56,544 nucleotides of DNA from a virus: IMG/VR virus record IMGVR_UViG_3300027799_000001, positions 1-56,544 of that record, one strand, 5' to 3'. The notes beneath the pieces were generated by a model. That model saw nothing but the letters and a program-made list of their open reading frames with translations. It had not been told where the DNA came from and ran no database searches. The position numbers and the translations under genes are program-made. The first letter of the stretch is position 1. The number at the start of each line of letters is the position of its first letter. Shown here one piece after another: positions 785 through 56,544 of the stretch.

Positions 785-1127
785 TTAACACAATATATCG
801 ACAGTACAATTCTGTTCGGAAGAATTGTTTTTATAGTAGTCAAACATTATATTGTAATTATCCCAAATCAAATTTTTAGCAAACTGTGCATCAAAGCCAT
901 AAACTTTTCTTACCACTCTTATCAAAGATTTAATATAGTAATACGGTTTTTTAGCCAAAACCAATTCTATGAATGTTTTAGAAGTTTTGTTATCCATAAC
1001 ATCACTAATCTCATCCCAAAAATTTACACAACACCAACTTTTTCTCTTCTTCACATTTTAATTCAATACTTCTGTACTCTTCTTCACATTTCAATTCAAT
1101 ACGCTTGTATTCTTCTTCTATATTCAT
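785..1127 (-). pseudogene. Frameshifted member of the MNLEKE/LKTF paralogous family
   Basis: Reading from ATG 1127 gives MNIEEEYKRIELKCEEEYRS... but stops at KFLG* because of one extra base in a C-run (1015-1017; GGG on the coding strand). Removing one base gives KFLDEISDVMD and continues through KTFIELVLAK to about 785, matching the paralogs at 1132, 2164 and 38908 end to end. The N-terminus carries an 11-codon tandem repeat (EEYKRIELKCE / EEYRSIELKCE). The C-terminus (QNCTVDILC) looks like the broken start of the zinc ribbon present in the 1132 paralog. A sequencing error, or internal initiation at 1054, are alternatives. Confidence 0.65.
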
Positions 1128-1131
1128 TCTA

Positions 1132-1533
1132 TTATCCTTTGTTGTGACATGACATGCATGTCCAGTTATAGTTTTCACCATTGTCCGCATAGACGCCTTC
1201 TATTGCTTCAGATTTTTTAACTACCTCACCGCATATCTCACATGTGCAATTTTGTTTTGAAGAGTTGTTTTTGTAATAATTCAAAATTGTATCGTAATAA
1301 GTACAAATTAAATTTTTGGCAAACAATAAACTAAAATTGTTTAACTGTCTAACTACTCTTATCAATAGTATCTTTGAAGTACATTGGTCTTTGGAAAGGA
1401 CTATCTCTCTGAATGTTTTTAATGTTTCTTTATCCTCAACGTGTCCAATTTTGTCCAAAAATTTGTGCAATAACAATTTTTTCTCTACTTGACTTCTGAA
1501 ATCGACCATAGCAAATTCTTTTTCCAGATTCAT
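1132..1533 (-). CDS. LKTF-family protein with C-terminal zinc ribbon, 133 aa
   Basis: No known function. Residues 1-95 form the domain shared with the genes at 785, 2164 and 38908. It is mostly helical by residue pattern, with conserved blocks HKFLD, LKTFREIVL, RVVRQ, FAKNLI and YYDTILNYYK. Residues about 98-131 add two CxxC pairs (CEIC and CMSC) that look like a zinc ribbon, absent from the 2164 and 38908 copies. Upstream GAAGGAGATAG is a clear ribosome-binding site. Small helical phage protein plus zinc ribbon suggests nucleic-acid or protein binding, which is inference only. Confidence 0.75.
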   Translation of the reverse strand: MNLEKEFAMVDFRSQVEKKLLLHKFLDKIGHVEDKETLKTFREIVLSKDQCTSKILLIRVVRQLNNFSLLFAKNLICTYYDTILNYYKNNSSKQNCTCEICGEVVKKSEAIEGVYADNGENYNWTCMSCHNKG

Positions 1534-1554: not shown

Positions 1555-1776
1555 TTACAACAAATGTTTTACGAATTCAAGCTCGTTCTCGAGTAGTAGC
1601 TTAGCAGCTTCTTTGTTTTGTGTAATAGCAGCTACGCATATCTCTTGTGATCGTATATTGCATGGTACATACGATATATTTAATCCATTTTTAGTCACAA
1701 GAGCCAAGCAAAGTTCGTAAGTAAATTCTGATCTTGGCAACTTTCGTAAATCTAAGGTTTCAGTATTTAAAGACAT
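1555..1776 (-). CDS. Short DUF4116-like repeat protein without the N-terminal domain, 73 aa
   Basis: ATG at 1776 follows GAAAGGACATATAAA; in-frame upstream codons exist but have no comparable site. The product contains two 24-residue repeats (FTYELCLALVTKNGLNISYVP and SQEICVAAITQNKEAAKLL) ending with a VKHLL tail. It is the only member of the family here that lacks the SFVSYD domain, and may be a deletion derivative or an antagonist of the full-length proteins. Overlaps the 3' end of the 1778 gene closely. Confidence 0.6.
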   Translation of the reverse strand: MSLNTETLDLRKLPRSEFTYELCLALVTKNGLNISYVPCNIRSQEICVAAITQNKEAAKLLLENELEFVKHLL

Positions 1777-1777
1777 T

Positions 1778-1966
1778 TTATATGTCCTTTCTTTTTTGTT
1801 CAATAAAAATAGTATTAACAATAAACTCATGCGATTTTCCAGCAAATAACCATCTTTTAAAAACTTTTTGAGCTTCATTGTTTTTTGATTTGCTGAGAGA
1901 ATCTATTATGTTCGCCAAAATGTCTACTTTTTCTTGTTCACTTAGTAAGCCATGTTTCGAATTCAT
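1778..1966 (-). CDS. Hypothetical protein, 62 aa
   Basis: Starts MNSKHGLLSEQEKVD with AAGGAATAT upstream, and is the first gene after a consensus promoter at 2017-2045. Charged, mostly helical, no membrane segment and no recognised domain. The C-terminus is basic (FIEQKRKDI). Confidence 0.55.
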   Translation of the reverse strand: MNSKHGLLSEQEKVDILANIIDSLSKSKNNEAQKVFKRWLFAGKSHEFIVNTIFIEQKRKDI

Positions 1967-2163: not shown

Positions 2164-2439
2164 TTATACTTTAACTTTGTAATAATTAACCATTTCATCA
2201 TAATAATCGCAGATCCAATGTCTAGCAAATGATCTACTAAAACCATATGTTTGGCTTAGTACTCTATCCAATATTCTTTTTACATAATACCTTTCTTGGG
2301 TAAGAACTACTTCTTTGAATGTTTTCAATGTTCCTATATCTTCAACTTGTCCTACTCTATCAAAAAGTTTATACAATATAAATTTATTCTCTTCAAAACA
2401 TTTAAAATGAATGAGTTCACAATCTGTTACTATGTTCAT
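2164..2439 (-). CDS. LKTF-family protein, 91 aa
   Basis: Starts MNIVTDCELIHFKC after AAGGAGAAAAT. It carries the family blocks ILYKLFDRVG, LKTFKEVVL, RVLSQTYGF, FARHWICDYYDEMVNYYKVKV. It ends with the same YYKVKV as the 38908 paralog and has no zinc ribbon. The promoter at 2485-2513 lies 46 bases upstream. Unknown function. The remnant of a second cassette gene follows directly, as in the 38.9 kb locus. Confidence 0.75.
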   Translation of the reverse strand: MNIVTDCELIHFKCFEENKFILYKLFDRVGQVEDIGTLKTFKEVVLTQERYYVKRILDRVLSQTYGFSRSFARHWICDYYDEMVNYYKVKV

Positions 2440-38907: not shown

Positions 38908-39189
38908 TTATACTTTAACTTTGTAATAAGTTAAAATAGCATCGTAATTATCATAGATTAAGTGTTTAGCAAACCACAAATCAAAACCATATTTCTTCAT
39001 GACCATTCTAGTCAATGTTATTTTTGATGTTTCACCAGAAAAAACTAATTCTTTGAACGTTTTCAAAGTTTCCAAATCTATTTCATATTCAATCTCATCC
39101 AGAAACTTAAACAACAGTAATCTTTTCTCGCAATCACACTCTGCTTTATATCTCAAATCAATAAGTTCATATTCGTGTTTCAAGTCCAT
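38908..39189 (-). CDS. LKTF-family protein, 93 aa
   Basis: MDLKHEYELIDLRYKAECDCEKRLLLFKFLDEIEYEIDLETLKTFKELVF ... RMVMKKYGFDLWFAKHLIYDNYDAILTYYKVKV. Shares the blocks KFLD, LKTFxExV, FAKxLI and YYKVKV with the 785, 1132 and 2164 copies. AAAGGAGACTGATATG gives the start; promoter at 39251-39279. Predicted helical and soluble, unknown function; more than three copies in one phage suggest it is under selection for variety. Confidence 0.75.
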   Translation of the reverse strand: MDLKHEYELIDLRYKAECDCEKRLLLFKFLDEIEYEIDLETLKTFKELVFSGETSKITLTRMVMKKYGFDLWFAKHLIYDNYDAILTYYKVKV

Positions 39190-45093: not shown

Positions 45094-45329
45094 AAACAAA
45101 GGAGTAGAAAAATGAGAGCAATAGTATTAGATGTATCTGTAGGTACGGAAGAGCATGCAGGTGGTATTATGTGTAGTTTCGATGAGGACTGCGCAAGATA
45201 CATAGGGCAGACTATAGAAGTCCAGCATATGTTTACTGATTGTTTACGATGGTATACCTTGAAAGGAAAATCTACAATTAAGCCTGAAGTAATTTTCCAT
45301 AAAAATTGGTTAGAATTTGTACAATAAAA
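45094..45329. repeat. 236-bp perfect inverted duplication (plus copy)
   Basis: Bases 45094-45329 are identical to the reverse complement of 56145-56380, from inside the ribosome-binding site to just past the stop codon of a 71-aa gene. The sequences outside and the next genes are only paralogous, so identity is confined to this block. Confidence 0.9.
45112..45327 (+). CDS. Hypothetical protein, 71 aa, identical twin of 56147-56362
   Basis: MRAIVLDVSVGTEEHAGGIMCSFDEDCARYIGQTIEVQHMFTDCLRWYTLKGKSTIKPEVIFHKNWLEFVQ. Small alpha/beta or barrel protein with repeated Trp/Cys; the final IFHKNWLEFV resembles the WLDxV blocks of its neighbours. Start after AAAGGAGTAGAAAA. No base, even synonymous, differs from the minus-strand copy. 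Unknown function. Confidence 0.75.
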   Translation: MRAIVLDVSVGTEEHAGGIMCSFDEDCARYIGQTIEVQHMFTDCLRWYTLKGKSTIKPEVIFHKNWLEFVQ

Positions 45330-45383: not shown

Positions 45384-46166
45384 ATGTCGAGAAAATTCAG
45401 AGTGAACGAGAAAGTAAGGAAGTCACCGCCTGAATTCACAAAAGAAAAAAAATGTATAGGTAAAGTTTTAGAATTTGACGACAATGCCTTTTGCAATGGT
45501 TGTTATAAGATTAGGCCCAAAGGTTCTTTTGATTTACTCATGTTTCATGGGTCTTGGCTTGATGATGTGCATGAGGACACTCCTGTAGACGATTTACGTA
45601 CTATTTTAGAGAAAGCAGAAAAGACAAATATAGAAAAATTAGATGAAACACCTATAATGTTTCAGAAATCTTGGCTTGATGAGGTGTATGAGGACACCCT
45701 TGTAGACGATTTACACACTATTTTGGGGAAAACAGAAGAACCAAAGTCAGACTATCACAAAGCAAAATATGACAAAGGAAAATATCAACCAAGATACATT
45801 CCGGTGATAGCTGAAGAGTTGGCGGCCAGGGTGTTTGAGTTTGGCGGTTGTAAAAACTATGGTTTCTTCTCTTTCCAAGATGTACCGGAAGCTATGGACA
45901 GATACATGGATGCACTGAAGCGTCATTATGATGTTCTCATGCTGCATAAACAACAAAATGGAAATTATGATATCAATGAGTCAGAATCACAAATACCAGA
46001 GATAGCTTTTATTCTTTCAAACGCTATGATGCTGGTTCATGTATATGTTAGGGAGGCGGCAAAAGCCAAAGGTATGACAATGAGAGAGTATGTTGATAAG
46101 GAAATTAATCCGGGCATGTTTACTGCTTTTGATGCGGTAAAAGAAAAATATAATACGAAAAGTTGA
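45384..46166 (+). CDS. Fusion of SH3-like module and DUF5664-type domain, 260 aa
   Basis: Residues 1-65 (FRVNEKVRKSPPEFTKEKKCIGKVLEFDDNAFCNGCYKI...MFHGSWLDDVHEDTPVDDL) match the separate 83-aa protein at 55858. A tandem copy of the last part follows (IMFQKSWLDEVYEDTLVDDL, about 90-115). Residues about 125-255 (AKYDKGKYQPRYIPVIAEELAARVFEFGGCKNYGFFSFQD... YMDALKRHYDVLML ... SQIPEIAFILSNAMMLVHVYVRE) resemble the DUF5664 nucleotide-handling (dATP/dGTP phosphohydrolase-like, MazG-like) family. Likely acts on dNTPs or tRNA-type nucleotides. The linkage to the module is new to me. Confidence 0.72.
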   Translation: MSRKFRVNEKVRKSPPEFTKEKKCIGKVLEFDDNAFCNGCYKIRPKGSFDLLMFHGSWLDDVHEDTPVDDLRTILEKAEKTNIEKLDETPIMFQKSWLDEVYEDTLVDDLHTILGKTEEPKSDYHKAKYDKGKYQPRYIPVIAEELAARVFEFGGCKNYGFFSFQDVPEAMDRYMDALKRHYDVLMLHKQQNGNYDINESESQIPEIAFILSNAMMLVHVYVREAAKAKGMTMREYVDKEINPGMFTAFDAVKEKYNTKS

Positions 46167-46788: not shown

Positions 46789-47337
46789 ATGTGTGAATTT
46801 TTTAGTTTTGTCTCATATAACAATGTTTTTTATTATTTTAATGCCAAGGACAGGGAAAAAAGGTTAGTTCCCAACCCAGATGACCATGAACGAATTTGTA
46901 AGTATTTTAAGATTAATGAATATAAGTGTAATAAATACTCATATATTAGAGGGAAACTTAAAACATATGATAAACAATATAAAGGTGACCACCCCAAAAA
47001 ATTTATTAAAAAGTTAAAACCAAAATTTAGCGAATTATGTTTGGCTGCTGTACAATTTTATGGTTCAAGCATTGGTGGAGTTCCAAACAAATACAGAACT
47101 CCAGAGCTTTGTATGTCATCAGTACAACAAGACGGAAGTGCAGTTTATTATTTGACTTCTAAACAAAGGACTAGATGTGTTTGTTTAGCAGCAATACAGC
47201 AAGACAGTTGGGCTATTGATTACTTAAATGATGAGCAAAGAACGCCACAGGTTTGTGAAGCGGCCGTTAGACAAGATGCATCAGCGGCCGATTTTTTAAC
47301 CAAAGAACAAAGAAAATTTGTAGAGTATTTATTATAA
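46789..47337 (+). CDS. SFVSY/DUF4116-like repeat protein, 3 repeats, 182 aa
   Basis: ATG 46789 after AAAGGATAAAAAA. N-domain MCEFFSFVSYNNVFYYFNAKDREKRLVPNPDDHERICKYFKINEYKCNKYSY is the most diverged in the family. Then NKYRTPELCMSSVQQDGSAVYYLTSKQ and two further repeats, ending RKFVEYLL. Unknown function. Cytoplasmic, helical-repeat solenoid expected. Confidence 0.82.
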   Translation: MCEFFSFVSYNNVFYYFNAKDREKRLVPNPDDHERICKYFKINEYKCNKYSYIRGKLKTYDKQYKGDHPKKFIKKLKPKFSELCLAAVQFYGSSIGGVPNKYRTPELCMSSVQQDGSAVYYLTSKQRTRCVCLAAIQQDSWAIDYLNDEQRTPQVCEAAVRQDASAADFLTKEQRKFVEYLL

Positions 47338-47352
47338 GAAAAGGAGTAAAAC

Positions 47353-47877
47353 ATGTGCCTTTTTTTTAGCTTTGTATCTTATGACGGCAATTTTTACTAT
47401 ATCAATGCAGAAGATAGAAAAAAGAAGTTACTTAAGAATCCTGACAGTCACACTCAGATATGTACTTTTTTCAAACTTCGGGAGGACATGTGTAATAAAT
47501 ACGAGTATACGAAAGAGAAAGGTTTGGTAATAGATTCCGAAGTTTATGTAGGTGATGATGTTGAAGGATTTATAAAGAAAACACTTCCAAAATTAGTAAA
47601 AATAGCTATTGTGACAGTGGTGAATTACGGTAAAGGCATTACCTTTGTTCCAGAAGAAGCACGTACATCAAAGTTTTGTTTAGCTGCAGTGAACCAAAAT
47701 GGTTCTGCTGTTGTTCATTTAACTGAAAAACAAAGAACTTCAAAGATTTGCCTTGAGGCTGTTAAGCAAAATGGGAACGCAATTTGGCACTTAACTGAAA
47801 GCCAAAAAACGCCAAAGGTTTGCCTTGCTGCAGTACTACAGAATAAAGATGCTTATAATTATCTGACTGATTCTTAG
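47353..47877 (+). CDS. SFVSY/DUF4116-like repeat protein, truncated by an amber codon, 174 aa
   Basis: N-domain MCLFFSFVSYDGNFYYINAEDRKKKLLKNPDSHTQICTFF, three repeats, then LTDS followed by TAG at 47875-47877. The frame downstream of TAG continues AAA AAA AGA GTA GAT TTA GCA TTA ... to a second TAG, coding the usual KKRVDLALENKK tail, so the stop replaces the CAG found in the junction gene. Probably loses only the 13-residue tail. DNA from 47707 to 47832 is nearly identical to bases 126-1. Confidence 0.85.
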   Translation: MCLFFSFVSYDGNFYYINAEDRKKKLLKNPDSHTQICTFFKLREDMCNKYEYTKEKGLVIDSEVYVGDDVEGFIKKTLPKLVKIAIVTVVNYGKGITFVPEEARTSKFCLAAVNQNGSAVVHLTEKQRTSKICLEAVKQNGNAIWHLTESQKTPKVCLAAVLQNKDAYNYLTDS

Positions 47878-47930
47878 AAAAAAAGAGTAGATTTAGCATT
47901 AGAAAATAAAAAACAGTAGAAAGGTAGAAT

Positions 47931-48737
47931 ATGTGCTGCTTTTTCGGTTTTGTCTCGTATGACAATGTTTTCTATTACATCAACGCAGAAGATAGGAAAA
48001 AGAAGTTACTTAAAAATCCTGACAGTCATACTCAGATCTGTTCCTTTTTCAATCTGCCTGAAGACAGATGCAATAAATACGAGTTTTCTGCAGATTTTGG
48101 CATTACAGCAGATGCCTTAGAATATAAAGATGACGACCCTGAAGGATTTATAAAAAAAATGTTGCCAAAATTAGTAGAAATGGCTATTGCGACAATTAAA
48201 ACTTATGGAGAAGGCATTGAGTTTTTATCAGACGAGGAACGCACTCAAGAAATATGTTTGGCTTTGGTTAAAAAGAATTGTGATGCAATAAGACACTTAA
48301 CTGATAAGCAGCGCACACCTGAGGTTTGTATCGCTGCAGTTAAGAAAGACGGCAACGCCATTGTCTATCTAACGAATAAACAGCGAACGCCAATGGTTTG
48401 CCTGGCCGCTGTTCAAAAAAATGGTGATGCTATTAGGTTCCTAACTGCTAAACAACGCACACCAAAAGTATGTAAGGAAGCAGTGAAGAAAGCTGGTTGG
48501 ACTATTACTTATTTAACAAATGAACAAAAGACTCTAGGACTTTGTATGTTATCTGTGGAAAAGAGTGGTACTAATATCGAGTATGTTCCTAATGAGCTAA
48601 GGACACCAAAGCTTTGCTTGACGGCAGTGTTAAAAGACAAGGCGGCTTTTAAATTTCTCAATTATATTCAAAAAGAAGAAGTGGCTATGGCTCTGCTAAA
48701 GCGAGTAAAAGCATGCAAAAAATCCGGAACAAAGTAA
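47931..48737 (+). CDS. SFVSY/DUF4116-like repeat protein, 6 repeats, 268 aa
   Basis: N-domain MCCFFGFVSYDNVFYYINAEDRKKKLLKNPDSHTQICSFFNLPEDRCNKYEF. Repeats from about residue 100: RTQEICLALVKKNCDAIRHLTDKQ, RTPEVCIAAVKKDGNAIVYLTNKQ, RTPMVCLAAVQKNGDAIRFLTAKQ, and three more. C-terminus basic (ALLKRVKACKKSGTK) and unlike the usual VDLALESKN tail. AAAGGTAGAATATG site. Confidence 0.88.
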   Translation: MCCFFGFVSYDNVFYYINAEDRKKKLLKNPDSHTQICSFFNLPEDRCNKYEFSADFGITADALEYKDDDPEGFIKKMLPKLVEMAIATIKTYGEGIEFLSDEERTQEICLALVKKNCDAIRHLTDKQRTPEVCIAAVKKDGNAIVYLTNKQRTPMVCLAAVQKNGDAIRFLTAKQRTPKVCKEAVKKAGWTITYLTNEQKTLGLCMLSVEKSGTNIEYVPNELRTPKLCLTAVLKDKAAFKFLNYIQKEEVAMALLKRVKACKKSGTK

Positions 48738-48761
48738 AAATCTGAAATAAAGGAGTAAAAA

Positions 48762-49712
48762 ATGGGTGGCTTTTTTAGTTTTGTATCGCACAAAAATACG
48801 TTTTATTATATTGACGTAAATGGGCGTAAAAACAAGATACTTGAAGATCCTGACAACCATACACAGATATGCGCATATTTCAAACTTCCTGAGAAGCAAT
48901 GTAATAAGTATGAGTATGTAAAATATGAGTTTTCTTCAGAAGATCCTAACGAGGAAGACGTTAGAGCTGAAAAGATAGTGTACGAAGGCGACGATCCATT
49001 TGATTTTATGGAAAAAATACGTCCTATTTTTACAGAATTGTGCATAACAACAGTTATTAATTATGGTAATGGAATCGAGTTCTTAAAGGGCTATCAACGG
49101 ACACCTGAAATTTGTTTAGCTTCTATTAAAAATAAGCCAGAGTCTATAGAATATTTGACTGATGAACAAAAAACACCACAGGTTTGTTTGGCAGCAGCGA
49201 AGAAAAATTGGGAAACTCTTGAGCACATGAATAACAAGCAGAGAACACCTGAAGTTTGTTTAGCGGCTCTTTTGCAAAATATCGAAGCAGCCAGAATATT
49301 GACGGCTGAACAGATAACTCCAGAGATTTTACTTGCTACTGCTCAAAAAAATGGAGAAATAATAAAAATTTTATGGTCAAGTCACTTCAGAACACCTGAA
49401 GTTTGTCTTGCTGCTATTAAACAAAATTGGATGCTTATTAGTAGTTTGGCTGACGACCAAATAACATTGGATATTTGTATTGAAGCGGTATCACAAAACA
49501 AAGAAGCTTATGCTTATGTGCCTTTATCTATGAGAAGAAGACTTCATTCAAAGGTATCAAAAAAATTAAAGAAATTTTTTGAACAAAAAGATGAAGAAAG
49601 AATACGTGTAATAGAAGCTCGTGAAAAAGAAGATAAACGCAGGTTAGCTGCTCGGGAAAAGAAAAATGAAATTAAGAAGGCTCTTCGGTTTTTGTTAAAG
49701 CAAATAGATTAG
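48762..49712 (+). CDS. SFVSY/DUF4116-like repeat protein with charged coiled-coil C-terminus, 316 aa
   Basis: N-domain MGGFFSFVSHKNTFYYIDVNGRKNKILEDPDNHTQICAYFKLPEKQCNKYEY with an acidic insertion (SSEDPNEEDVRAEKIVYEGDD). About six diverged repeats (RTPEICLASIKNKPESIEYLTDEQ and following). Unique C-terminus of about 60 residues, highly charged coiled coil (KKFFEQKDEERIRVIEAREKEDKRRLAAREKKNEIKKALR). The most elaborate family member. Confidence 0.88.
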   Translation: MGGFFSFVSHKNTFYYIDVNGRKNKILEDPDNHTQICAYFKLPEKQCNKYEYVKYEFSSEDPNEEDVRAEKIVYEGDDPFDFMEKIRPIFTELCITTVINYGNGIEFLKGYQRTPEICLASIKNKPESIEYLTDEQKTPQVCLAAAKKNWETLEHMNNKQRTPEVCLAALLQNIEAARILTAEQITPEILLATAQKNGEIIKILWSSHFRTPEVCLAAIKQNWMLISSLADDQITLDICIEAVSQNKEAYAYVPLSMRRRLHSKVSKKLKKFFEQKDEERIRVIEAREKEDKRRLAAREKKNEIKKALRFLLKQID

Positions 49713-49747
49713 TCTTCAATCTTTTTTGTAAGAATAGGATACAAAAA

Positions 49748-49951
49748 ATGCAACTTAAAGATCCTGAATTCAAGAAAATGATTGGAGACCGCATGCTAGA
49801 CAATGGCGGTTTTACCTACGTCTACGGCGCAGTAAAAGACGGCTCTTCTGTCAGACCTGCTACTGCCTCTACTAAAAGGCGCAAAAGAAACGATAAAAGA
49901 TCAGTGAAACAAGCTGTTTTGAAAAGAATTTTCAGAGAAGAATTAGAATAG
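49748..49951 (+). CDS. Basic hypothetical protein, 67 aa
   Basis: MQLKDPEFKKMIGDRMLDNGGFTYVYGAVKDGSSVRPATASTKRRKRNDKRSVKQAVLKRIFREELE. Contains a strongly basic KRRKRNDKR patch typical of nucleic-acid-binding tails. AGGATACAAAAA before the ATG. Unknown. Confidence 0.55.
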   Translation: MQLKDPEFKKMIGDRMLDNGGFTYVYGAVKDGSSVRPATASTKRRKRNDKRSVKQAVLKRIFREELE

Positions 49952-50002
49952 TTGTATGTATAAAATATCAAAAAAAGAACAGGTTTAATCAAAGGTTTTT
50001 TT

Positions 50003-50590
50003 ATGAAATATAAAATTGCTATTGATTTAGATGGAGTTAGTTGGAACTTTAGAACACACCCTTCTTCTTATGCTTGGTTTAAATTTGGATATAGTTTAGC
50101 TACGTTTCCTAAAAAATTCAGATACGATATGTCAGATTTTCCAAAGAATGTTCAAGAAGAAGCTAAAAAGTATTTGGTTGATGAAAAAAGAATGTCAGAT
50201 GTGATACCTGTTACGTGTCTTGTAAGTGTTGTAAATGACTTACAAGACAATTACGAAGTAATATTTTTAACAACAAGAGATCCTAAATTGAAATGCACTT
50301 CTGAAAAACTTAAGGAAATATTTCAAAAATATTCTTGCAACGTTCCTGAGTTAGTTTACAGTACAGACAAAATAAAATTCTGCGAAGAGCATAGCGAAGT
50401 AACAGCTATAGTAGAAGACTGCGCCGAGACTCTCATGAAGGTAACTTTAAATAAAAAGATTAAACATATAAGATGTTTTTTAGTTATTAATGAACATACC
50501 AAAGCCTATAACGGTTTCATAGAAAACCATAATATTCCTAGAATAACAAAAATGAAATGTTTGTGTGATATTTTGACAAACATTTATTAA
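50003..50590 (+). CDS. HAD-superfamily phosphatase, 195 aa (paralog of 35957)
   Basis: MKYKIAIDLDGVSWNFRT provides DxDGV (D9, D11 by count). NYEVIFLTTRDPKL gives motif II. KIKFCEEHSEVTAIVEDCAETLMKV gives the later Lys and Glu-Asp motif. Helical cap between about 20 and 75. Starts AAAGGTTTTTTT before ATG. Very diverged from the 35957 HAD protein, so the two were probably acquired separately. Confidence 0.75.
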   Translation: MKYKIAIDLDGVSWNFRTHPSSYAWFKFGYSLATFPKKFRYDMSDFPKNVQEEAKKYLVDEKRMSDVIPVTCLVSVVNDLQDNYEVIFLTTRDPKLKCTSEKLKEIFQKYSCNVPELVYSTDKIKFCEEHSEVTAIVEDCAETLMKVTLNKKIKHIRCFLVINEHTKAYNGFIENHNIPRITKMKCLCDILTNIY

Positions 50591-50675
50591 TAATTATTTA
50601 AAATAACACATCTGATACCATTTTAAGCTTTTATAGTATATTAATACAAACAGTATTTAAATAAATGGAGCAATT

Positions 50676-51059
50676 ATGAAAAAATACATACTTTTAGAAA
50701 ATGATACAAAAAACTTCGAATGTCGTATATTACATAGAATAAAAGCTGTACGTGATTTTGGTCACATAAGAGATGGTGACATTGGAGGTTATTTAGAATC
50801 TGAAAGAAATCTTAGTCATAAAGGTAATTGTTGGGTTTACGATGAAGCTATGGTTTTTGAAGATGCTACTGTTACAGACAAATCAATGATATTTGATAAA
50901 GCTATTATTTATGGCACGGTAAAAATTTGTGGAAAATCTATTGTTTGTGGCAACACAATGATTAGTGGTAATGTAAAAATATACAACAATTCAGTTGTGT
51001 CTGAGTTTGTACACATGTTAGAAGCAAAAACAAATCAAAATATACACAAAGGAGAGTAA
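50676..51059 (+). CDS. Left-handed beta-helix-like protein, 127 aa
   Basis: After an N-terminal ILLENDTKNFECRILHRIKAVRDFGHIRDGDIGGYLESERNLSHKG, a hexapeptide-like run begins: NCWVYDEAMVFEDATVTDKSMIFDKAIIYGTVKICGKSIVCGNTMISGNVKIYNNSVV. Repeating hydrophobic-x-x-x-[AGS] turns suggest a left-handed parallel helix, as in bacterial acyltransferases or polymer-forming proteins, though the active-site His is not evident. Similar small proteins occur in other phages; role unknown. Confidence 0.66.
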   Translation: MKKYILLENDTKNFECRILHRIKAVRDFGHIRDGDIGGYLESERNLSHKGNCWVYDEAMVFEDATVTDKSMIFDKAIIYGTVKICGKSIVCGNTMISGNVKIYNNSVVSEFVHMLEAKTNQNIHKGE

Positions 51060-51062
51060 ATA

Positions 51063-51215
51063 ATGAATAATTTTTTAATCAAAAACTTATGTGCTTTGTT
51101 GGTTGTGGTGTTATTTTTAGGACAAGCCGTAGTTTCGATGTTTCAGCGTAATGTGCCTTTGGCTGTATATTTTGCTTTAGCTGCTGCCATTAATTTCGCT
51201 GTTTTGTTTGTTTGA
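51063..51215 (+). CDS. Two-TM microprotein, 50 aa
   Basis: ATG 51063 to TGA 51215, AAAGGAGAGTAAATA upstream. MNNFLIKNLCALLVVVLFLGQAVVSMFQRNVPLAVYFALAAAINFAVLFV: two membrane segments and a short RNVP turn. Unknown; like the microproteins at 46232 and 46418. Confidence 0.7.
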   Translation: MNNFLIKNLCALLVVVLFLGQAVVSMFQRNVPLAVYFALAAAINFAVLFV

Positions 51216-51229
51216 TAAAGGAGTAAAAA

Positions 51230-52093
51230 ATGTGTAACTTTTTTAGCTTTGTTTCGTATGACGGTCATTTCTATTACATCAACGCTGAAGACCGCAAAAA
51301 AGAAATACTTGAGAATCCTGACAGTCACACTCAGATATGTTCATTCTTCAATCTGCCTGAAGATAGGTGTAATAAGTACGAGTATACGAAAGAGAAAGGT
51401 TTGGTAATAGATTCCAAAGTTTATGTAGGTGATGATGTTGAAGGATTTATGGACAAAATATATTCAAAATTAGTAGAATTGGCTATAATAACAGCAGAAA
51501 ATTATGGGGATGGAATGGAATTCATTCCGGATAAACTTCGTACATCAGAGCTTTGTTTGGCAGTGGTTAAGAAAAATGGAAATGCGATCAAATATTTATC
51601 TTTAGAGCAGAGAACTCCAAATGTTTGTTTAGCGGCGGTGAAGCAGGATGGTTATGCTGTTTGTTGGCTAACAGAGGATCAAAGAACGCCTCAAGTTTGT
51701 TTGGCAGCAGTAATGCAAAATGGTAGTGCTATTGGGTATTTAACTTTCAAACAAAAAACTCCTGAAATTTGTTTGGCTGCTGTTAAGCAAAATGGTGGCG
51801 CTATCATGGTTTTATCTGAGGAGCATGCCACACCAGAAGTTTGTAGGGCTGCTATTAACAACAATCCTTATTCCGTGGCAAGCATACCCGACAAATTGCG
51901 TACTCAAGATCTTTGTTTGATGGCTGTTAAAAAAGATGGGACTGTTGTTAAATATTTATTGGATGAAGAGAGAACGCTGGATATTTGTTTAGCGGCAGTG
52001 AGGCAAAATAAAAATACTCGTAAATATTTGACTGAAGATCAGAAAAAAGCAGTAGATTTAGCATTAGAAAATAAAAATAAAACAAAAGGATAG
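51230..52093 (+). CDS. SFVSY/DUF4116-like repeat protein, 7 repeats, 287 aa
   Basis: N-domain MCNFFSFVSYDGHFYYINAEDRKKEILENPDSHTQICSFFNLPEDRCNKYEYTKEKGLVIDSKVYVGDDVEGFMDKI, then LRTSELCLAVVKKNGNAIKYLSLEQ and six further 24-residue repeats to LTEDQKKAVDLALENKNK. The fifth repeat, ATPEVCRAAINNNPYSVASIPDKL, is a variant also present in the 54475 protein. AAAGGAGTAAAAAATG start. A truncated copy of the N-domain follows directly (52099). Confidence 0.9.
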   Translation: MCNFFSFVSYDGHFYYINAEDRKKEILENPDSHTQICSFFNLPEDRCNKYEYTKEKGLVIDSKVYVGDDVEGFMDKIYSKLVELAIITAENYGDGMEFIPDKLRTSELCLAVVKKNGNAIKYLSLEQRTPNVCLAAVKQDGYAVCWLTEDQRTPQVCLAAVMQNGSAIGYLTFKQKTPEICLAAVKQNGGAIMVLSEEHATPEVCRAAINNNPYSVASIPDKLRTQDLCLMAVKKDGTVVKYLLDEERTLDICLAAVRQNKNTRKYLTEDQKKAVDLALENKNKTKG

Positions 52094-52098
52094 AAAAA

Positions 52099-52260
52099 AT
52101 GTGTCATTTTTTTAGCTTTGTATCTTATGACAATGTTTTCTATTACATCAATGCCGAAGATAGAAAAAAGAAATTACTTAAGAATCCTGACAGTCATACT
52201 CAGATATGTTCCTTTTTCAATCTGCCTTTGAATATTACAATTTTCAGCAGCAAACAATAA
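52099..52260 (+). pseudogene. Truncated SFVSY N-domain joined to an ankyrin gene fragment
   Basis: ATG 52099 encodes MCHFFSFVSYDNVFYYINAEDRKKKLLKNPDSHTQICSFFNLPL then 10 unrelated residues to TAA 52260. At about 52229 the DNA switches from the family sequence to ankyrin coding: frame +2 there reads QFSAANNNINMLKLSIKEGGNVN, part of a first ankyrin repeat of the next gene. An illegitimate recombination created an out-of-frame junction. Confidence 0.72.
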
Positions 52261-52267
52261 CATAAAC

Positions 52268-52699
52268 ATGCTTAAACTATCAATAAAAGAAGGTGGAAAT
52301 GTGAATGCTAATGAAGGTTTTGCATTGCGCCGAGCAATAGAATTAAATAATGTTAAAATGGTCGCTCTGTTATTAAAAAATGGAGCAGACCCCAATGTAT
52401 ATAGACATTCATCAATACGACTTGCAGTACGACATAATAATACAAAAATTGCTAAGTTATTAATAGATGCTGGTGCTGATATTAATGAAGAAAATGGTTT
52501 TTCCTTGCTATTTGCCGCTATAAATGGTAATGTGGAAATGGTTAAAATTTTAATATCGCCAAATAATAAGGGCAAAAATATAAAAAAGAAAGTTTTACGT
52601 TCAACTATTAAAAGTATTCATGGGTATTCTTTGATACCAAATAATGCTAATAAATACACAGAAATTATTAATGTTTTAACAAATAAATTGAAAGGATAA
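52268..52699 (+). CDS. Ankyrin-repeat protein, 5'-truncated, 143 aa
   Basis: ATG 52268 gives MLKLSIKEGGNVNANEGFALRRAIELNNVKMVALLLKNGADPNVYRHSSIRLAVRHNNTKIAKLLIDAGADINEENGFSLLFAAINGNVEMVKILI. About three and a half ankyrin repeats (A...NN..VA.LLL..GAD.N). A first-helix coding segment remains upstream, out of frame and without a usable start, so the gene has lost its beginning. Ankyrin proteins bind other proteins; phage ankyrins may modulate host or, in symbionts, eukaryotic targets (inference). Confidence 0.8.
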   Translation: MLKLSIKEGGNVNANEGFALRRAIELNNVKMVALLLKNGADPNVYRHSSIRLAVRHNNTKIAKLLIDAGADINEENGFSLLFAAINGNVEMVKILISPNNKGKNIKKKVLRSTIKSIHGYSLIPNNANKYTEIINVLTNKLKG

Positions 52700-52763: not shown

Positions 52764-53219
52764 AATCTCTACCTTTTCAGCACTTTGTTTTTTTCGCATT
52801 GTTTTATACCATTCGCAAGGTATTTTACACAAAACAAAACCGCCTTTCTTGCGACTATATCTTTTCTGTTGTGGGATACATGAGCAATCGCTTAGTCCGA
52901 ATAGAAGTATTTCCAGTCTATCACCTGTATTCGGGTGTTTTAAATTGGCAAGATAATAATTGAAACTCTTTTTTACATGTGTGTTTTGTTTGATATAATG
53001 GCAAAAATAAAATCTAACGCTTCTGAGCCATGTTATCAATACTCTTTTTGTTATATCCTTATAAATTATCAAACCCTTGTGCACAACGCTGTATCTCCTA
53101 CAACCGCAATACACACTGCCTGACAAAACTATTTTGTACAAATGCTCTTTGCATCTATGATGGACTTTATCGATCCTATTTATCCCGCTATCCATTCCAG
53201 TACGTAATTCATACCACAT
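52728..53219 (-). CDS. Cys-rich hypothetical protein, 163 aa
   Basis: Start chosen at ATG 53219 (MWYELRTGMDSG) after GAGGTGTATAAAATCCCAT; a TTG at 53240 is also in frame. Basic protein with several Cys (VYCGCRRYSVVHKG, FGLSDCSCIPQQ, LCKIPCEWYKT) and a WLRSVRFYFCHYIKQ helix. Possibly a phage regulator or nucleic-acid binder. No family recognised. Terminal gene of the minus arm. Confidence 0.6.
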   Translation of the reverse strand: MWYELRTGMDSGINRIDKVHHRCKEHLYKIVLSGSVYCGCRRYSVVHKGLIIYKDITKRVLITWLRSVRFYFCHYIKQNTHVKKSFNYYLANLKHPNTGDRLEILLFGLSDCSCIPQQKRYSRKKGGFVLCKIPCEWYKTMRKKQSAEKVEILNKFNIPNYIV

Positions 53220-53589
53220 ATGGGATTTTATACACCTCAATAATATTTATTTTATGTACAGCATACATTAGTTTCTTTTTGAGCTTATACTCAGGTGTAA
53301 GTAACTTTTGGGATGCTTTAACATCATATACTATACTCTGTCCGTCATTATATGTTACAACAAAATCAGTTACATAATCACATATGCGTACATTATTTAC
53401 TTCGATTGGATATCTTTTGTGTACTTCAATCGATTCTATATTACCTCTATTTTTAAGCATTTCAAGAAATAAATAAAATTTATATTCCTTTTTTGAGTCG
53501 AATGTATATCCACCATATACAATACGCTTATGCATGTATCTACCAGTTTTTGACTTGAATTTTTTGTAACAAACTGGATAACTCGGCAT
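53209..53589 (-). CDS. DUF1064 PD-(D/E)XK nuclease-like protein, 126 aa
   Basis: ATG 53589 after AATGGAGTTTTA. KRIVYGGYTFDSKKEYKFYLFLEMLKNRGNIESIEVHKRYPIEVNNVRICDYVTDFVVTYNDGQSIVYDVKASQKLLTPEYKLKKKLMYAVHKINIIEV matches the DUF1064 pattern: DSkxEyxFY...L...G.I......YPI...........Y..DF.......ivYDVKg..T..yklKkkl. Asp, Glu and Lys of a restriction-like fold are in place. Probably a phage Holliday-junction-type or repair nuclease. Confidence 0.82.
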   Translation of the reverse strand: MPSYPVCYKKFKSKTGRYMHKRIVYGGYTFDSKKEYKFYLFLEMLKNRGNIESIEVHKRYPIEVNNVRICDYVTDFVVTYNDGQSIVYDVKASQKLLTPEYKLKKKLMYAVHKINIIEVYKIPYVV

Positions 53590-53696
53590 TAAAACTCCAT
53601 TAAGTACAACATTGTATTGTATATAATATAATACAATAATAATAAATTGTATCAAAAAAATATTATTTTTTTAAAAAAATAATTGTTCAACTAAAC

Positions 53697-54474: not shown

Positions 54475-55326
54475 TTAATTTTTACTTTCCAATGCTAAAT
54501 CTACTGCTTTTTTCTGATCTTGAGTCAAAAAATTATAAGCATTTTTATTCTGCAGTACCGCGGCCAAGCAAATCTGAGGTTCTCTTTGCTCATCAGTTAA
54601 ATAATAAATAGCAGTACCATTTTGCTTAACCGCAGCAAAACATATCTCCGGAGTTTTTTGCCTATAAGATAAATGTCTAACTGCTCTACCGTTTTGCATT
54701 ACTGCTGCTAAACAAATATCTGGAGTTTTATCTTTATCAAGTAAAAAATTAATAACATCTCCATGTTTTTTAACAGCCATCAAACAAAGATCTTGAGTAC
54801 GCAATTTGTCATGCATATAGGCTACAGAACAAGGGTTATTGTTAATAGCAGCAATACAAACTTCCAGTGTTTGCTGTTTTTCAGATAAATATTCTATAGC
54901 CTTACCATTTTGGTTCACTGCTGCCAAGCAAATCTGAGATGTCTTATGTTCATCATTTAACCAACGAACAGCATGTCCTTTTTTACTAACTACTGATAAA
55001 CATAATTCATGTGTACGAAGTTTATCTGGAATGAATTCAATTCCATTCCCATAATTTTCTGCTGTTATTATAGCCAATTCTACTAATTTTAAATATATTT
55101 TGTCCATAAATCCTTCAACATCATCACCTACATAAACTTTAGAATCTATTACCAAACCTTTCTCTTTCGTATACTCATACTTATTACATCTATCTTCAGG
55201 AAGCTTGAAAAAAGCACAAATTTGAGTGTGACTATCTGGATCCTCAAGTATTTTGTTTTTTCTATCTTCGGCATTGATGTAATAGAATGTATTATCATAA
55301 GATACAAAGCTAAAAAAATGACACAT
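54475..55326 (-). CDS. SFVSY/DUF4116-like repeat protein, 7 repeats, 283 aa
   Basis: N-domain MCHFFSFVSYDNTFYYINAEDRKNKILEDPDSHTQICAFFKLPEDRCNKYEYTKEKGLVIDSKVYVGDDVEGFMDKI. Seven repeats, starting LRTHELCLSVVSKKGHAVRWLNDEH and including the AINNNPCSVAYMHDKL variant, ending LTQDQKKAVDLALESKN. Closely parallel to the 51230 protein of the other arm and to the junction gene. AAAGGAATAGAAAAAATG start. Confidence 0.9.
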   Translation of the reverse strand: MCHFFSFVSYDNTFYYINAEDRKNKILEDPDSHTQICAFFKLPEDRCNKYEYTKEKGLVIDSKVYVGDDVEGFMDKIYLKLVELAIITAENYGNGIEFIPDKLRTHELCLSVVSKKGHAVRWLNDEHKTSQICLAAVNQNGKAIEYLSEKQQTLEVCIAAINNNPCSVAYMHDKLRTQDLCLMAVKKHGDVINFLLDKDKTPDICLAAVMQNGRAVRHLSYRQKTPEICFAAVKQNGTAIYYLTDEQREPQICLAAVLQNKNAYNFLTQDQKKAVDLALESKN

Positions 55327-55857: not shown

Positions 55858-56109
55858 TTATTTTAGGTCATCTATTTCATTGACAACAGGGTATACATCA
55901 TCTGCTGGAGTGTCATCTGGGACAGAATCAAGCCAATATTTTTGAAATACAAAAAAGTAGGGATTGTATTTAGTTCCAATAACATAACAACCATTGCGAA
56001 TATATTTTTCATCAAAGGCTAAAACTTTACCAACTAATTTTTTTTCTCTCGAGAAATACCGTAAAGTACAATCCAATACATTCTCATTTACTCTAAATTT
56101 TTTCAGCAT
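55858..56109 (-). CDS. SH3-like module protein, 83 aa (paralog of the N-terminus of 45384)
   Basis: MLKKFRVNENVLDCTLRYFSREKKLVGKVLAFDEKYIRNGCYVIGTKYNPYFFVFQKYWLDSVPDDTPADDVYPVVNEIDDLK. The FRVNExV ... KKxxGKVLxFD ... NGCYxI ... WLDxVxxDTPxDD pattern is shared with 45384. Follows the 71-aa twin exactly as in the plus arm. Barrel-like; function unknown. Confidence 0.72.
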   Translation of the reverse strand: MLKKFRVNENVLDCTLRYFSREKKLVGKVLAFDEKYIRNGCYVIGTKYNPYFFVFQKYWLDSVPDDTPADDVYPVVNEIDDLK

Positions 56110-56144: not shown

Positions 56145-56380
56145 ATTTATTGTACAAATTCTAACCAATTTTTATGGAAAATTACTTCAGGCTTAATTGT
56201 AGATTTTCCTTTCAAGGTATACCATCGTAAACAATCAGTAAACATATGCTGGACTTCTATAGTCTGCCCTATGTATCTTGCGCAGTCCTCATCGAAACTA
56301 CACATAATACCACCTGCATGCTCTTCCGTACCTACAGATACATCTAATACTATTGCTCTCATTTTTCTACTCCTTTGTTT
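56145..56380. repeat. 236-bp perfect inverted duplication (minus copy)
   Basis: Reverse complement of 45094-45329 without a mismatch. It includes the whole 71-aa gene. Confidence 0.9.
56147..56362 (-). CDS. Hypothetical protein, 71 aa, identical twin of 45112-45327
   Basis: Same sequence as 45112-45327 in DNA and protein. The AAAGGAGTAG ribosome-binding site contains the TAG stop (56367-56369) of the junction-spanning DUF4116-like gene, so the two are tightly coupled. Confidence 0.75.
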   Translation of the reverse strand: MRAIVLDVSVGTEEHAGGIMCSFDEDCARYIGQTIEVQHMFTDCLRWYTLKGKSTIKPEVIFHKNWLEFVQ

Positions 56381-56544
56381 TGCTTATATCTAAATCTACT
56401 CTTTTTTTCTGAGAATAAGTCAGATAATTATAAGCATCTTTATTCTGTAGTACTGCAGCAAGGCAAACCTTTGGCGTTTTTTGGCTTTCAGTTAAGTGCC
56501 AAATTGCGTTCCCATTTTGCTTAACAGCCTCAAGGCAAATCTTT
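56367..56544 (-). CDS. 3' end of the junction-spanning SFVSY/DUF4116-like gene
   Basis: Continues in frame from base 1 (equivalent to 56454) with repeats SKICLEAVKQNGNAIWHL and TPKVCLAAVLQNKDAYNYLTYSQ, then KKRVDLDISKTKE and TAG. Unlike the 47353 gene the CAG codon after LTYS is intact. Confidence 0.85.
   Translation of the reverse strand, partial: KICLEAVKQNGNAIWHLTESQKTPKVCLAAVLQNKDAYNYLTYSQKKRVDLDISKTKE
56454..56544. repeat. Terminal direct repeat (right copy)
   Basis: Identical to bases 1-91; see the left copy. Confidence 0.9.

Follow-up and report, generated by a model that had tools for sequence, protein, structure and literature searches.

The window analysed here is the whole 56.5-kb virus record IMGVR_UViG_3300027799_000001 (56,544 nt), in which a family of genes joins a conserved N-terminal domain (the head) to a tail of DUF4116 repeats (PF13475). 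Eight genes consisted of a head and 2-7 repeats; a truncated head and a gene with repeats only were also present. The tail was predicted to form an alpha-solenoid, the heads were held by purifying selection, the copies had recombined, and the same head occurred widely in other viral contigs with other tails. According to the reading that we favour, at a probability of roughly 45%, the products are soluble modular proteins with a conserved docking or effector head and an exchangeable DUF4116 recognition tail, acting inside the host. All copies would have the same head function, and the solenoid would set what each copy binds. Many copies would be kept, and new tails would arise by recombination between them, through mosaics, by adding or losing whole repeats and by transfer of the head to other repeat classes. 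The proteins would most likely be used in the host cytoplasm, on varied host or competitor proteins, in takeover or counter-defence.

Gene family and predicted structure

A scan of the record with the head profile returned exactly nine heads (E 2e-17 to 2e-27). All eight head genes with repeats exceeded the PF13475 gathering cut-off of 24.9 bits (33.0-129.9 bits, E 4e-8 to 2e-38), and the repeat-only gene at 1555 was sub-threshold at 22.2 bits. AAAGGAG-type ribosome sites preceded most of the genes. The members are as follows.

46789..47337 (+): g46789, head and 3 DUF4116 repeats, 182 aa; head off-consensus, with DDH for DSH and Ser for Glu51
47353..47877 (+): g47353, head and 3 repeats, 174 aa; mosaic
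47931..48737 (+): g47931, head and 6 repeats, 268 aa
48762..49712 (+): g48762, head, 6 repeats and a charged C-terminal tail, 316 aa; head without Cys2 (MGG) and Ser32
51230..52093 (+): g51230, head and 7 repeats, 287 aa; modelled by AlphaFold2
52099..52227 (+): truncated head copy, 88% to g47931; breaks off at ~52227
54475..55326 (-): g54475, head and 7 repeats, 283 aa
55345..55836 (-): g55345, head and 2 repeats, 163 aa
1..624 (-): 5' part of junction gene gJ (624->56367(-), 236 aa, 5 repeats), with the head and repeats 1-5; runs on across the record ends
56367..56544 (-): 3' part of gJ, if the circular closure is right; in the stretch common to g47353
1555..1878 (-): repeat-only relative, 107 aa; below the Pfam cut-off

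A sequence-only reading had listed nine genes and a truncated copy, and all of these exist; the interval that it gave for the whole family, 46789-52260, covers the left arm only. Its 2-7 copies of a 24-residue helical repeat agreed with the repeat counts and with the AlphaFold2 solenoid. Its head of about 100 residues was too long, since the conserved head spans ~65-80 aa and the remaining residues form a helix and a degenerate capping repeat.

The AlphaFold2 model of g51230, built with 32 sequences, had a mean predicted local distance difference test score (pLDDT) of 95.7 and a predicted template-modelling score of 0.87. In the model, the head was a small alpha/beta domain with strands at residues 5-10, 13-15, 48-53 and 57-62 and two helices, followed by a long helix (70-92) and then by regular helix pairs. 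The pairs comprised helices of 10 and 6 residues with a period of 24 residues, and the DUF4116 tail is thus predicted to be a regular alpha-solenoid of tandem two-helix units. An alpha-solenoid model for DUF4116 was also presented as a structure-modelling case in PMC8078820. Among viral proteins, the top structural matches were DUF4116 proteins from both giant viruses and phages, including one with an F-box annotation, and the resemblance to PDB entries was weak, to binding solenoids of the armadillo/HEAT type. A relative with SVxDSV repeats from another contig was modelled (pLDDT 85.7) as a head, long helices and a small C-terminal domain. For both models, Foldseek and VIA-align returned nothing for the head; the lists were dominated by the solenoid or helical parts, and hence gave no evidence of a new fold.

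Conserved features and occurrence of the head

The landmarks of the head family (SFVSY/MCxFFS) were M1, C2, F4, F5, S6, R22, D31, S32, H33, E51 and D61. M1, C2, F5, R22, D31, H33 and D61 were invariant in a 27-row alignment, which takes in members that were recovered with a pattern not involving the MC motif. Among the window's heads, that of g48762 lacked C2 and S32 and that of g46789 lacked S32 and E51. Cys2 would be N-terminally exposed after methionine removal. The head would be a small enzyme or a docking module, because Cys2 is invariant in the alignment and Arg, Asp-Ser-His, Glu and Asp recur in nearly all members; this polar set suggests catalysis led by Cys2.

A known function of the N-terminal domain, which the sequence-only reading had named as the finding that would speak against it, was looked for and not found. 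The head had no match by sequence in Pfam, NCBIfam or PHROGs, and its profile had no match in the PDB at E <= 10. The IMG/VR scans detected it in about 47 further viral contigs and in a single metagenome-assembled genome of Chitinophagales; among 395 Bacteroidota genomes it was found in 1/395, namely the query genome itself. The head is an undescribed domain without an entry in these family databases, yet dozens of phages carry it, joined to repeat tails that are unrelated to one another. In other viral contigs it was fused to SVxDSV repeats and a C-terminal 'GLVPSFDGTTWRLHSGK' domain, and in contig L021 it was carried on repeats resembling leucine-rich repeats (LRR-like), which were present in EBPR podovirus 1 as well. 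An unrelated phage (G008) had three tandem head genes; their heads were near-identical, and their arrays had lengths of 100, 56 and 64 residues. That one head is combined with several repeat classes supports a role of the tails in recognition. At L103:5676-6395 and G020:C1:9344-9946 a lectin-like gene (WSGTT...YYVRCVRDGG) stood between two SV-type head genes. A reverse transcriptase was also encoded on the contig with that gene; in G020, no template repeat matching the lectin-like gene was found near the reverse transcriptase.

Head-bearing relatives adjoined ssb and replication-type genes. This position, together with the several copies per genome, could fit scaffolds for the phage's own replication or packaging machinery, with each tail binding a different phage protein, and alpha-solenoids commonly serve as scaffolds. 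However, the phage's own partners would not need recombining, weakly constrained tails or unrelated repeat classes, and such a role was considered very improbable.

Selection and recombination

Heads and repeats were compared in three gene pairs. For codons 2-52 of the heads, the ratio of nonsynonymous to synonymous differences per site (pN/pS) was 0.06-0.19, with many synonymous changes, whereas that for homologous repeats was 0.30-0.77 (pooled Fisher p = 0.0003). Hence, the heads are under purifying selection and the repeats are much less constrained. Synonymous differences in the heads were near saturation and replacements were few, indicating that the heads are held by selection and not by recent conversion. 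Repeat variability was highest at positions 17 and 20 (3.5 and 3.6 bits), followed by 24 and 13; positions 17 and 20 map to the short second helix in the g51230 model. Cys8 of the repeat was invariant (38/38), partly by construction, since that Cys served to locate the repeats.

These values bear on a neutral expansion, in which a duplicating repeat gene is kept by chance, gene conversion homogenises the heads and slippage alters the repeat number. The truncated head, the repeat-only gene and the degenerate heads of g48762 and g46789 would be expected from such a process, and the repeat pN/pS was not clearly above 1. Against this, the low ratios and near-saturated synonymous sites show selection on the heads, the reading frames are intact in eight copies, and the head is retained in many unrelated phages, joined to other tails; neutral expansion was accordingly judged quite unlikely.

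Significant mosaic breakpoints were detected by max-chi2 in 7/8 triplets (p 0.0005-0.0025). The gene g47353 had a g55345-like start, a g51230/g54475-like middle and a 3' end identical to gJ, and the identical block was offset by 144 nt, equal to two repeats. Furthermore, repeats 5-6 of g51230 matched repeats 3-4 of g54475, an offset again of two repeats. The earlier proposal of a constant head and a variable solenoid in an array changed by recombination is therefore well supported within the genome by the Fisher test, the mosaic breakpoints, the two-repeat offsets and the trio of G008.

The truncated head at 52099-52227 adjoined an ankyrin array that could be read, in another frame, up to the head breakpoint.

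52232..52699 (+): ankyrin array; annotated start 52268, open up to the head breakpoint in a different frame

The Ank_2 score rose from 55.0 to 62.4 bits once the stretch upstream of the annotated start was included. Because the ankyrin reading reaches the breakpoint and this score increased, the locus is read as a head copy spliced out of frame onto an ankyrin array, and hence as a head in the act of joining another repeat class. The array read from the breakpoint matched the PADLOC candidate-defence model PDC-M72A (3e-13), a match that may reflect the ankyrin repeats only. Superinfection or phage-phage competition would give this match a meaning: each copy would recognise a component of a rival phage or satellite, and the array would be an immunity repertoire. 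The accessory position at the ends of transcription units, the many copies and the recombining tails agree with such a role. However, none of the tested heads or DUF4116 members matched a PADLOC model, and nothing observed separates competition from host-directed action; it was regarded as unlikely. The family members also had no match to a known anti-defence protein.

Probable relation to MCxFKS heads and diversity-generating retroelements

Gut phages encode heads of the form 'MCxFKS...DSHxDL...FVRVE...VDQD', on tails of SQVGEM/STVQ/SATV repeats, on MORN repeats (L119) and, in three isolate prophages, on a DUF6273-type domain (C-lectin). An Avd-like open reading frame (ORF), a template repeat and a reverse transcriptase lay beside the MCxFKS/DUF6273 genes. 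The changes from template repeat to variable region were at adenines in 14/15, 8/9 and 13/14 cases in the three prophage records, and strains differed mainly within the variable region. Given these neighbours and the adenine-specific changes, the prophage loci are diversity-generating retroelements (DGRs).

L110:3001-5491 (prophage record): DGR with an MCxFKS-head target, Avd-like ORF, template repeat and reverse transcriptase

The order M-C-x-F-x-S, D-S-H, E, D was common to the window-type and MCxFKS heads. The hhalign comparison gave E 1.3e-4 in one comparison at a probability of 54%, and its score of 27.3 was above all 150 column shuffles (maximum 26.3, mean 19.8). No significant cross-match was obtained with HMMER (best E 0.057). 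On these alignments, the two heads are probably homologous. The record itself had no RVT_1 match, and the combination of reverse transcriptase, template and variable repeat that marks a DGR was not found in the window.

DUF6273 targets of DGRs have been proposed as receptor binders (PMC10743442), and the window proteins might likewise be virion decoration or receptor-binding proteins whose tails vary for host range, a change that variable tails would fit. However, two transcription units carry the head genes at their 3' ends, outside the tail cluster, whose genes run on the minus strand from 2911 upward. Moreover, relatives adjoin ssb and replication-type genes, and no fibre or trimerisation motif was found in the window proteins by the Pfam scan. 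DGR target2 of phage nd12 has been published (PMC10743442), and in the nd12 gene that matches it (OR777946; L120:2498-3391) DUF3310 is joined to the DUF6273 domain. This fusion hints that target2 is intracellular rather than receptor-binding, and lectins of this kind therefore need not belong to the virion. A virion role for the window proteins was considered quite improbable. Given the probable tie to DGRs, some of the DGR targets called 'receptor-binding' may have their site of action within the cell.

Proposed function

The modular reading, with a constant head and exchangeable recognition tails, was favoured because the tail evolves more quickly than the head, is exchanged for other repeat classes and, in probable cousins, is hypermutated, which points to one activity aimed at varied partners. 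Action in the cytoplasm is inferred from the accessory position and from the replication-region neighbours in relatives. The partners would be varied host targets, and counter-defence would be one among several possible uses.

Several observations weigh against this reading. With Cys2 lost in g48762 and Glu51 in g46789, a Cys2 mechanism cannot be common to all heads. The repeat pN/pS was never clearly above 1, and relaxed constraint fits as well as diversifying selection. The strongest single mosaic, the 3' end common to gJ and g47353, may be an assembly effect. In addition, the link to MCxFKS heads and DGRs comes from a profile-profile score and co-linear motifs, with a HMMER cross-match that was not significant.

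A more specific proposal is a widespread phage effector system, in which a small Cys2 enzyme head would modify or disable what the tail holds. Several mutually unrelated kinds of binding module (the DUF4116 solenoid, the SVxDSV helices, LRR-like, ankyrin and MORN repeats, the short STVQ/SATV repeats and the DGR-mutated lectin) would supply the tails, and recombination or retro-mutagenesis would diversify them. This proposal was held only tentatively and is doubtful at present. If true, phages would have an equivalent of target selection by adaptors; should the head prove to be an enzyme, they could programmably aim one activity at many host proteins.

Comparison with known systems

DUF4116 proteins of the giant viruses Klosneuvirus and Hokovirus and of Pseudoalteromonas phage Slicky01 have the same 24-aa repeat and alpha-solenoid and are expanded within one genome. 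In Slicky01, three neighbouring DUF4116 genes (L036:6691-9003) have constant ends and differing repeat numbers; its N- and C-terminal constant parts are its own, i.e., the same principle with another head. None of these DUF4116 proteins was seen with the Cys2 head of the window.

The F-box/ankyrin adaptors of large eukaryotic viruses combine a constant docking domain with a variable repeat tail in many paralogues, and the window proteins would work in a similar manner. However, the window phage is a bacterial virus without a ubiquitin system, and no Pfam match to F-box was found in any family member at E <= 1. N-terminal-cysteine enzymes such as SRAP/HMCES and class II amidotransferases begin with Met-Cys and have an invariant Cys2, as does the window head. 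Unlike them, the head is much smaller, and Pfam had no match to either family around the N-terminal cysteine of these proteins. The DUF6273 targets of DGRs (PMC11792537, PMC10743442) likewise pair a constant part with a diversified recognition part, and in three prophage records the DGR-mutated DUF6273 domain carries a probable cousin of the window head. Diversification in the window differs in that whole repeats recombine, without a reverse transcriptase.

Accessory island and record ends

The record encodes portal, major head, terminase, DnaB and primase proteins. No close relatives of the phage were found in IMG/VR by terminase, major head protein or DUF4116 array, and named phages gave no near DNA match. 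An accessory island was bounded by a perfect inverted repeat of 235 nt.

45094..45328 (+): left arm of the inverted repeat, 235 nt, perfect; carries a 71-aa ORF
56146..56380 (-): right arm of the inverted repeat, 235 nt, perfect; identical 71-aa ORF

Because these flanks are identical and inverted, the island could flip by homologous recombination between them. Both accessory arms share the gene order 71-aa ORF, FRVNE-type gene, head genes. The two convergent arms described by the sequence-only reading are a diverged inverted duplication with this perfect inverted repeat.

The record termini have 91 nt in common, which sit within a 163-nt exact repeat of gJ and g47353. For this reason the circular closure and the 3' half of gJ are insecure and may be assembly products. 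Repeat arrays were cut by the contig end in many related contigs too.

In the left arm, the gene at 45384-46166(+) fused an FRVNE-type N-terminal part to a dATP/dGTP diphosphohydrolase N-terminal domain (PF18909, 3e-12), and its inverted counterpart at 55858 had the FRVNE-type first part only. A second paralogous family of small proteins was spread across the accessory parts at 785-1054(-), 1132-1533(-), 2164-2439(-) and 38908-39189(-); the one member tested had no Pfam match. A DUF1064/TnsA-like nuclease-type gene was situated between the two arms, at 53209-53655(-).

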